Shown one piece after another: positions 33,100-64,000 of a stretch of 64,000 nt of DNA (position 1 is its first letter; the number at the start of each line of letters is the position of its first letter). This stretch comes from Lenzites betulinus (taxonomy: Eukaryota; Basidiomycota; Agaricomycetes; Polyporales; Polyporaceae), in the NCBI GenBank assembly GCA_022264855.1, contig JABYQU010000003.1, positions 1 through 64,000 on the forward strand, in the 5' to 3' direction. The position numbers and the translations under genes were made by a program. The notes below the pieces were generated by a model, which saw only the letters and a program-made list of their open reading frames with translations, made no database searches and was not told where the DNA came from.

Positions 33100-33517
33100 C
33101 TCACGAAGAGGCCTCGTACGCGGTCGTGTGATGCCGCTTCCTGCGGTGATAGTTTGGGGGGTTGTCGGGTTTGGTGATGATTACGCAAAGAGAGCGAGAG
33201 AGGGTACTCTCGGATGAGGTACTTGGGATGTAGTATGCGGTGGGCGCACCCGGTTGTACGGAGTGGTTTGCGGCGCGGCGAGACGTTCTTGAAGTTGAGT
33301 TCTGCGTGATCGATCGCCGATAGCATGTGTTACGGGTCACATAGTGGTTCTCCACGACCGGTGTGTGTGACACGACGGCGAATGCAGCGAGCAGGGAGAG
33401 GGCGAGCGAGGTCGTCGTAGATGGTGCGAGAGGTGCGGGGCAGTCTCCGGCAATGAGGCATTTTCCCGCAAGCGAAATTAAAAGGAACGGCGTAAGGGAC
33501 GGTGTGTGCGGGGCGAG

Positions 33518-33522
33518 CCAAT
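33518..33522 (+). promoter_or_regulatory. CCAAT box of SRPK copy 1
   Basis: GAGCCAATCAGCG lies ~310 bp upstream of the ATG and is conserved at the same distance in all four copies (42173, 51612, 61053), within otherwise variable flanking DNA. A CT-rich tract follows before the ATG. It is a plausible binding site for the HAP/NF-Y complex. Confidence 0.5.
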
Positions 33523-33827
33523 CAGCGGAGGCTGAATCGACGGCCTCCTGCCTATTTGGGAGATGTGTAGCTCAGCGTCGGGCGCGCGTCTCTCGCCGCC
33601 TCCGACCCTCTGCTCTCTGCTCGCGCTCTGTCCGTCCCTCCGCCCGCCTGCGCCCCAGCGACCACCGCACCGGCCCCAACACACCCGACAGCCGCGAACA
33701 ACCCGCACACGGCGCCGCCAGCGCTCGCCCAAGCCGTAGACCGCACGCCGTAAGCGACCTTATCTCTGCGGGCTTATCTCTGGATCACGGACAGGAGCAG
33801 GTTTGGCGATAGAGGACGAGCAGCAAG

Positions 33828-61057: not shown

Positions 61058-61362
61058 CAGCGCGGGCTGAATCGACGACCTCCTTCCTATTTGGGAGATG
61101 TGTAGCTCAGCGTCGGGCGCGCGTCTCTCGCCGCCTCCGACCCTCTGCTCTCTGCTCGCGCTCTGCCCGTCCCTCCGCCCGCCTGCGCCACAGCGACCAC
61201 CGCACCGGCCCCACCACACCCGACAGCCGCGACCAGCCCGCACACGGCGCCGCCAGCGCCCGCCCAAGCCGTGGACCGCACGCCGTAAGCGACCTTATCT
61301 CTGCGGGCTTATCTCTGGATCACGGACAGGAGCAGGTTTGGCGATAGAGGACGAGCAGCAAG

Positions 61363-63908
61363 ATGTCACACGCGGGCTCCTACGACTCTTCTCACTCTCA
61401 TTCTGTCATGACCGAGGACGAGGAGGACTGGGAGGACTATGTCAAGGGCGGGTACCACCCCGTGCACATCGGCGACGCCTTCTCCAACGGCCGCTATGTC
61501 GTCGTCCGCAAACTCGGCTGGGGCCACTTCTCCACCGTCTGGCTCGCAAACGATACAAAGTGAGCGCTCTGTTTCTGTGCAGTGTCCCCCGCATCCCCCC
61601 GCTACGCCCTCTTCGTCTCCGCTGCGCACTCAAATTACCCCCGCGCCGCCACACACGGCGCCCACCTGCACATCGCGCCCGTCCTCTGCGCTTGTGGGAG
61701 CTTTCCGGGCGTTCGCACCAGGCTTCGCCGTCGCTTTGGCCGCTGCTTCTCGAGTTGGCGCGATCGGCCGTATCGTCTTCGCCCAAGGGACTGCCCAACC
61801 ACTCCCGCCACATGCAAAGGCATTCAGACTCCGTACAGCCTCGCAGAAGTTCCTGGATCTCCCGCCGCTTCACTTGCGGCGCCGTGCGCGCATCCCCGCA
61901 CTTCTCCGGGCTTCGCCGTCGTTGGAGGTCGCGCACCATCCACATCGCCACCACAGTGCACAGGAGGCGCGCGATCGATCACATCGTAACCCTCAGGCGC
62001 AAGCCAGGCCAGCGCTGCATGCTGGCCAAGTCTTGAGCGTGTTGTGCGGCTCGTTGGCCACCGACGAACCCGCCATGCAGCCACCGTGTCAGCCTGCGAC
62101 TCTTCACTCTCCCCATCGCAGCCCTCGGGCGCGAGCCAGGCCAGCGCTGCATGCTGGCCGAGTCTTGAGCGGGTTGCGCGGTTCTCTGGCTAACGGCGAA
62201 CACGCCTTGCGCAGCGGCATCCGTCGTTTCCCCCTTTCACTCTCCTTTCACACTCTCCCTGCGCCTTTCACGGGCTGCACGGGTTACTCAGGCTCACTGA
62301 CTTTCTGTGGCGAAATCCTGGCGCTGCGCTCCCGATTTGGCTCGCCGACGCCATCATATGGACGGTTGCGAAGCCGGGAGCCGCAAACCGGCCGTACGCA
62401 GCGATTGTGCTAGCATACGATTATCTCCCCTTCACTCTCCCTGTGCGCTTTCCCCGGGCAGTCGAGGCATCCATGCTTTCTCCTGGCGTGCTGGCGCTGC
62501 GCTCCCGATTTGGCCCACCGACGACCATCATATGAACGGTTGCGAAGCCGGGAGCGCGGTCCGTCGATCCCTTGATTCTCGTAAGACTCTACGTGCAGTG
62601 CGCACGGCACTGGCGGAATGTGCAGACGTCCCTGCGCCACCTTCCCGTCTTGCTTTGACCCGGGGAAAACGCGTGTGCGTCACTCGCGCGCCAGGGGGCT
62701 TTTTTGCACCCTCACGCGTACGATAATTCCTGCGCGCTCTCTTCACACTCCTCAGGGGAAGCATTCGCCACCGTGCATGCTCACAGACTGCGAACATTTT
62801 CTCTGCCTAGCCAGCTGTTGATTTGTCAATCCCGTAAACATGCTGACCAACGCTTACCCCCAGGTTAAACCGACATGTAGCTCTGAAGATCGTCAAGTCT
62901 GCACCTCGCTACACAGAAACTGCGCTAGACGAGATCAAGCTCTTGCAGCGTCTCATCACGTCTTCCACACCACCATTACAACCCACACCCGATCACCCAA
63001 ATCCCTCCCCTTCGCCATCAGCGACCCACCCAGGCCGCTCGCATGTCATCTCATTCCTCGACCACTTCCGCCACAAGGGCCCGAACGGCACGCACGTCTG
63101 CATGGTGTTCGAGGTGCTCGGCGAGAACCTGCTGGGGCTCATCAAGCGGCACCAGAACAAGGGCGTCCCGATGCACGTCGTCCGGCAGATCGCGAAGCAG
63201 ATACTGCTCGGGCTGGACTACATGCACCGCTGCTGCGGCGTCATCCACACTGGTGAGCAGCCCCGCAGCGCACGCGATCTGAAAGACGCCTAACGCGCGA
63301 GACCAGACTTGAAGCCCGAGAACGTGCTGATCTGCATCGACGACGTCGAGACGGTCATCCAGGCAGAGCTCTCGGCGCAGTCCGCGTCACAAACGCCCCC
63401 GCCGACGAGACTGGTAGGCGTGCCGCCGTCGCGGGGCCGCGGCGGCAACCAGACGCCGCGCTCGGAGTCGGTGTTCATCACGGGCTCCCAGCCACTGCCC
63501 TCGCCGTCGTCGTCGTTTGGCTCGACGTCGCACCTCGACCGGTGGGCGTTCGGCATGAGCAAGATCGAGGGCGCGGCCGGTGCGAGCGGCCCCGGCAGCG
63601 TCGGGAGCGCGAGCAAGGTCAAGTCCGGCAGCGACGATGGCAACACGAGCAGGAAGCGCGCAGACTCGACGGAGCAGGCCGCAGAGCGGATATCGAACGT
63701 GACGCTGGACGCGGAGCCGTTCGGCGAGAAGTCGCGTGCAGAGTCGGCCAAGGGCAGGCAGGGCGGGCCGTCGCTGGGGCGGCGCGTCGACGTGGCGCGG
63801 GCGGCGGGCGGACGACACGGGCGGGATCAGCGCGACCCTCGCGGGCGGCGAGCAAGATCGTACCGACGATATCGAATACGTGAGCACGTCCACAAGGTAA
63901 TAGGTTGA
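61363..63908 (+). CDS. SRPK-type kinase fragment, copy 4
   Basis: Exons 61363-61559, 62864-63252 and 63307-63908. The open frame is intact across exon 2 (it has the full C run that copy 3 lacks). Exon 3 has the copy 3 nucleotide type plus one further silent change (TCG to TCC at the Ser of GSQPLP). The truncated end is VHKVIG-stop as in copy 3. The unit continues past the right edge. Confidence 0.83.
61990..62600. repeat. intron 1 tandem duplications, copy 4
   Basis: Same 132-bp and ~173-bp duplications as in copies 2 and 3. Confidence 0.7.
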
Positions 63909-64000
63909 GTACAGGCTCTATAGTGCACGGTGACCTCTCTGCAAGGTGGCAGGTTGAGTACAGGCTCGACATTGCACGGTAGGTGGTCTGTCCATAAGGC
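63890..64000. repeat. degenerate ~40-bp repeats, unit 4, cut by window edge
   Basis: Matches the unit 3 variant (AGGTTGAGTACAGGCTC words) up to the end of the window. Confidence 0.55.

Follow-up and report, generated by a model that had tools for sequence, protein, structure and literature searches.

Four truncated SR-protein kinase gene copies in tandem beside their complete parent gene in the bracket fungus Lenzites betulinus

The human RCCX module is a repeated module that carries gene fragments at its breakpoints and has an intact gene at the end of the array. Macrosatellites consist of head-to-tail units of several kb in high and variable copy number, with tens of units. In the D4Z4/DUX4 macrosatellite a gene begins in every unit, and the unit at the distal end, which reads into unique flanking sequence, gains there what the others lack (PMC8350899); the D4Z4 unit number is given as more than 10 (PMC3616921). 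Genes are duplicated in eukaryotes at rates so high that an array of this sort is no surprise by itself (PMC3857721).

Here we describe an array of partial SR-protein kinase (SRPK) genes in Lenzites betulinus, whose assembled genome is 37.4 Mb in 108 contigs. The window, that is the whole 64,000-bp stretch of DNA, comprises positions 1-64,000 of a 1,252,393-bp contig, and contig positions 64,001-124,000 were also analysed. Four SRPK 5' ends lie in the window, all in one orientation, with ATGs at 33828, 42483, 51922 and 61363 (copies c0 to c3), and a fifth SRPK start (c4) follows the fourth unit (about contig position 70,415). A five-way alignment separates two types of 5' part (c0/c4-like and X) and two types of the filler spacer that follows (A and B), in the order c0-A, X-A, X-B, X-B, c4. 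The features are as follows:

32066-33114, plus strand: upstream intergenic flank of copy c0, also present ahead of the complete gene (contig 70,415 on) and absent from units c1-c3.
33115-33827, plus strand: c0 promoter region and 5' UTR, with CCAAT at 33518-33522; all 96 gap-free variable sites separate X (c1, c3), and c0 equals c4.
33828-35586, plus strand: copy c0, truncated SRPK ORF of 394 aa; exons 33828-34024, 34545-34933 and 34988-35586, GT-AG introns.
35458-41790, no strand: spacer A of unit 0, apparently non-coding filler that includes the truncated ORF's tail (Pfam scan; A vs B indels and ORFs).
42483-45025, plus strand: copy c1, truncated SRPK, a mosaic of X-type 5' and A-type 3' parts; exons 42483-42679, 43984-44372 and 44427-45025.
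44897-51229, no strand: spacer A of unit 1, identical to that of unit 0 (0 differences over 6,714 bp).
51922-54334, plus strand: copy c2, truncated SRPK; exons 51922-52118, 53423-53810 and 53865 on, with an exon 2 frameshift in the assembly.
54335-60670, no strand: spacer B of unit 2; A vs B 92.2% over 6,370 aligned bp.
61363-63908, plus strand: copy c3, truncated SRPK, open, 395 aa; exons 61363-61559, 62864-63252 and 63307-63908; identical in sequence to database protein P0001.
63777-64000 and on to contig 70,115, no strand: spacer B of unit 3, followed by ~300 bp of X-type promoter and then the complete SRPK (contig 70,415-76,099).

The exon 3 starts of c0-c3 (34988, 44427, 53865 and 63307) have the 9.44-kb period that the original prediction had proposed for four same-orientation SRPK 5' ends, and this regularity is real; exons 2-3 share the spacing, and the ATG-to-ATG steps are 8,655, 9,439 and 9,441 bp, the first only 8.66 kb because intron 1 is shorter in c0. 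Self-comparison places the tandem units at 34511-43947, 43948-53386, 53387-62827 and 62828-70415, and each 9.44-kb unit is made up of a promoter, exons 1-2, the first part of exon 3 and 6.3 kb of unique, apparently non-coding filler. The array does occupy the previously proposed span of 33,100-64,000 but exceeds it on both sides: the duplicated flank of c0 starts at 32,066, and the array runs past the window end to contig position 70,414, where a complete SRPK closes it. The segment 32066-34290 is 98.6% identical to 70415-72640, and its homology to the other units begins only at 33115. The locus is a partial tandem duplication of the SRPK gene, four units beside the parent as far as one assembly shows, with the intact parent at the array end and a flank common to parent and first unit.

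How does this arrangement compare with the systems above? With the RCCX module it shares gene fragments at breakpoints and an intact gene at the array end; here, however, the repeated fragment has retained a promoter, a start codon and a clean reading frame, and unique filler makes up the greater part of the unit. As in D4Z4, each unit starts a gene, but there are four units rather than tens, and the distal one is an ordinary full-length kinase gene. The term macrosatellite, applied in the original prediction, suits the head-to-tail units of several kb but not the count, which is only four in one assembly, or the adjoining parent gene. The array structure is of a known kind, and it is the coding-clean fragments that deserve a second look. 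A limited look through the open-access literature, by title or abstract opening, found no published account of this array.

The full-length parental SRPK, which had been expected to need a search of the genome, is the next and last copy of the array. Hand-modelled at GT-AG sites, c4 (contig 72178-76099, outside the window) has six exons that start at 72178, exons 3-6 being at 74283-74957, 75015-75133, 75336-75501 and 75612-76099, and encodes 677 aa in one continuous frame with no stop. Homology to the units stops at 74,752 and the remainder of the kinase continues beyond it. A PDB search with c4 gave Sky1 (1q8y, E 5.7e-128), SRPK2 (2x7g) and SRPK1 (1wak); the alignment with 1q8y falls in two stretches, 25-214 and 411-584, that cover both lobes with the spacer between them, so c4 has the bipartite kinase core with spacer insert of the SRPK family of CMGC kinases, nearest to Sky1 and SRPK1/2. 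No L. betulinus protein near 677 aa was among the best 120 matches listed in either of two database searches, and the public annotation of the parental SRPK may be missing or misjoined. An ORF with a BTB domain lies to the right of c4.

The four window copies differ from the family in that they stop within the kinase spacer. They part from c4 after residue 352 in the kinase spacer exon, where the filler starts; in c0 this junction is at 35457/35458, and the 394-aa product consists of SRPK residues 1-352 and a 42-aa Arg-rich tail. The ATG, splice sites and frame are all intact in c0, c1 and c3, whose ORFs are of 394-395 aa. When residues 353-677 of the full-length protein were compared with contig 1-124,000 by tblastn (E <= 1e-3), no C-lobe exon was found in any of the four units, the only match (74753-76096) being c4 itself; the original prediction, which had staked itself on there being no overlooked C-lobe exon, was correct in this respect, and c0-c3 lack the C-lobe with its DLG motif, activation segment and substrate docking groove. 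Its conserved upstream CCAAT was likewise found in c0, c1 and c4, and c2 and c3 are identical to c1 there. Transcription of the fragments, if any, would give a kinase-dead N-lobe and partial spacer with the Arg-rich tail, a protein that should be inactive because it has no C-lobe. AlphaFold modelling of the truncated protein (mean pLDDT 48.8, 30-row alignment) neither supports nor excludes folding.

Copy c2 has a one-base frameshift in exon 2, within a C run. Unit 2 (51230-60670) is distinguished from unit 3 by a single substitution and by four C/G runs that are each one base shorter in c2; the other units have the longer form at 3 of these 4 sites, the only 3 at which comparison is possible. 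The shortenings are probably residual read-consensus errors, and because they look like such errors the frameshift itself may be spurious. Among database proteins, NCBI kinase models from L. betulinus match the truncated ORF best; P0001 has three member sequences, taken to be c0, c1 and c3, and P0002 has one, taken to be c2. Intron 1 is long, and its length differs between copies (520 bp in c0, 34025-34544; 1304 bp in c1-c3, 42680-43983 in c1; 1465 bp in c4), with internal repeats in the longer copies.

The filler spacers are 6.3 kb each, and types A and B are 7.8% different. No Pfam domain, transposase included, was found at E <= 0.1 in any of the nine spacer ORFs scanned. Between A and B, 25 of 34 indels are not multiples of 3, and pS exceeds pN in 11 of 48 stop-to-stop ORFs of at least 90 aa, which is no convincing coding pattern, some of the 48 being uninformative since they fall in A/B-identical stretches. 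The lowest pN/pS among spacer ORFs with more than 10 changes is ~0.6 (37854-38168, which has two stops in B, and 36275-36880). A coding gene within the filler was rejected because pN/pS is at least ~0.6 in the ORFs with more than 10 changes and the indels are mostly not multiples of 3, and the spacers look non-coding. RIP-like decay was also rejected: there is no excess of CpG transitions in the A vs B spacer, the rate at CpG (0.045, 132/2,932) being about that elsewhere (0.041, 186/4,584).

Such a filler might suggest that the 9.44-kb unit arose when a mobile element or satellite picked up the beginning of a kinase gene, as nothing in the flanking sequence matches the spacer and a small tandem repeat lies within it. 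The 37.4-Mb genome, however, holds no other full copy of the filler, its six matches being the four units and two short ones (246 bp at 70% on contig C75; 41 bp at 95% on the array's own contig, C32:541821), and the parent gene sits at the array end. We consider capture by a satellite or element very improbable and rejected a mobile element in particular, as there are neither dispersed full copies nor transposase or other Pfam domains in the nine spacer ORFs.

Copy c1 is informative about how the array was built. It is identical to c3 over 41791-44502 (0 differences in 2,712 bp) and to c0 from 44516 for 6,714 bp (0 differences), and the switch from X to A lies between the last X-type and first A-type site, at 44422-44502, inside an exon. 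This mosaic appears to be the mark of an unequal crossover: one such event between X and c0 units would yield c1 exactly, and a second at identical spacer ends would yield X-B twice. Since c1 passes exactly from X to A sequence and adjacent units are almost the same, there are good grounds for concluding that the array has grown by unequal crossing-over between units, and promoter-bearing partial copies with their unit types shuffled are what the original prediction's expanding array entails. The same near-identities could be read differently, as a copy number that is in part an artefact of assembly, either because a smaller array (c0-A, X-B and the complete gene) was unrolled or because the two nuclei of a dikaryon were merged. 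The absence of any difference between the c0 and c1 spacers over 6,714 bp fits this, as do the single substitution and four C/G-run shortenings between c2 and c3, which resemble residual consensus error, and types A and B could be two haplotypes. However, c1 combines X and A sequence exactly, the switch falling within an exon, and the sequence at window 30,100-33,000 matches only itself and 70,415-71,351, so no second haplotype contig is seen. We regard an artefact as improbable, and even the minimal array would keep truncated copies.

The relationship between c0 and c4 is patchy. Over 32066-34060 no more than 8 substitutions and 3 single-base indels separate the two, and neither has specific sites in the upstream region (0 of 96 gap-free variable sites) or in intron 2 (0 of 7), whereas intron 1 has 36 c0-specific and 17 c4-specific sites. 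Parts of c0 and c4 would seem to share a recent origin and parts not, which conversion or the duplication event itself could explain.

The truncated reading frames are strikingly free of amino acid change. Counted over 352 codons in four of the five copies (c2 was left out for its frameshift), with changes left unpolarised, the synonymous/non-synonymous differences are 18/0 between c0 and c3, 10/0 between c0 and c1 and 8/0 between c1 and c3; against c4 they are 19/1 for c0, 19/1 for c1 and 15/1 for c3. By lineage, 26 of 27 variable coding sites are synonymous. With the transition bias measured in the spacers, the probability that all 18 of 18 differences between c0 and c3 are synonymous is 1.9e-10 under neutrality, 0.019 at an omega of 0.1 and 0.12 at an omega of 0.05. 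The kinase spacer part of the ORF, A vs B, is also 8/8 synonymous (P = 5.8e-5), and this part is less conserved, varying between species at 15-31 of 139-148 aligned residues (8 orthologues compared). The exons of the fragments look constrained, and the attached filler does not.

Are the truncated ORFs then selected genes? The counts just given argue for it, as do the intact ATG, splice sites and CCAAT and the three of four frames that are open. The product would be a kinase-dead SRPK of 394-395 aa, comprising the N-lobe, the catalytic loop as far as DLKPEN, some of the spacer and the Arg-rich tail, and would act as a decoy in a dose that follows the number of copies; it might, for instance, engage the chaperones by which SRPK is kept cytoplasmic. 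This mechanism is suggested by PMC5293202, in which the SRPK1 spacer binds chaperones and controls localisation, with cytoplasmic retention of the kinase, and nuclear Sky1 inhibits yeast growth. Against it, the 11 c0/A-specific coding sites lie in two tight groups (permutation p ~0.002, for a statistic chosen after seeing the positions), whereas no clustering is seen for the X/B sites (p 0.57) or the c4 sites (p 0.38); such clustering is expected for imported tracts. Further, three units share one and the same X-type 5' part, which is too young to inform, and ~300 bp around the truncation junction are identical in A and B, synonymous sites included, which points to conversion and not to selection on protein. 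The original prediction had offered decoys, regulatory RNAs or dominant-negative peptides as possible functions, and the 18:0 pattern would fit a selected product as well as fragments renewed from a functional SRPK. Selection on the half-kinases is thus possible but on balance unlikely, and the fuller proposal, a dosage-tunable SRPK decoy family under strong purifying selection with its copy number reset by unequal crossing-over, is more doubtful still.

We therefore favour, as the probable overall explanation, a partial tandem duplication grown by unequal crossing-over in which the fragments are for the most part by-products that owe their clean coding sequence to recent spread and to exchange with functional SRPK sequence. 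The X-type copies would have spread very recently, and stretches exchanged with a functional SRPK would keep the fragment frames clean; the complete parental gene lies directly downstream with an intact 677-aa frame. Exchange is favoured over selection because the c0/A changes are clustered and c0 is patchily near-identical to c4. That half-kinase function is not why the frames are clean is less secure than the mode of growth, and two points count against it. First, the assembly contains no donor with the synonymous variants specific to c0/A and X/B (the nearest SRPK-like match outside the array is C18:77258, 61%), so donors would have to be other alleles. Second, the junction is common to A and B units whose spacers are 8% different, so truncation appears to date back far enough for decay to have set in, and none is seen.

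At this locus one can read how unequal crossing-over builds an array out of a broken copy of a core regulatory gene that still adjoins its parent, and fragments with no amino acid change pose the question of whether exchange keeps them coding-clean or the half-kinase is useful. If the latter were true, control or localisation of the splicing kinase would vary with copy number in this fungus. In another bracket fungus, Daedaleopsis nitida, three partial or odd SRPK models (P0008, P0018 and P0070) lie on one 315,514-bp contig and may reflect a separate event in which this gene was partially duplicated; the models differ in ending elsewhere, without the tail, and may be annotation error.

Two other features were observed on the contig. 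A gene-like stretch at window 29000-30020 is repeated at contig 117454-121818, 136646-137674 and 143102-144128, in both orientations and at 74-86% identity, with no Pfam match in the two pieces scanned. A minisatellite at window 3089-4595 passes from 128-bp units (7.2 copies, 96% matches) into 225-bp units (3.1 copies, 87%).
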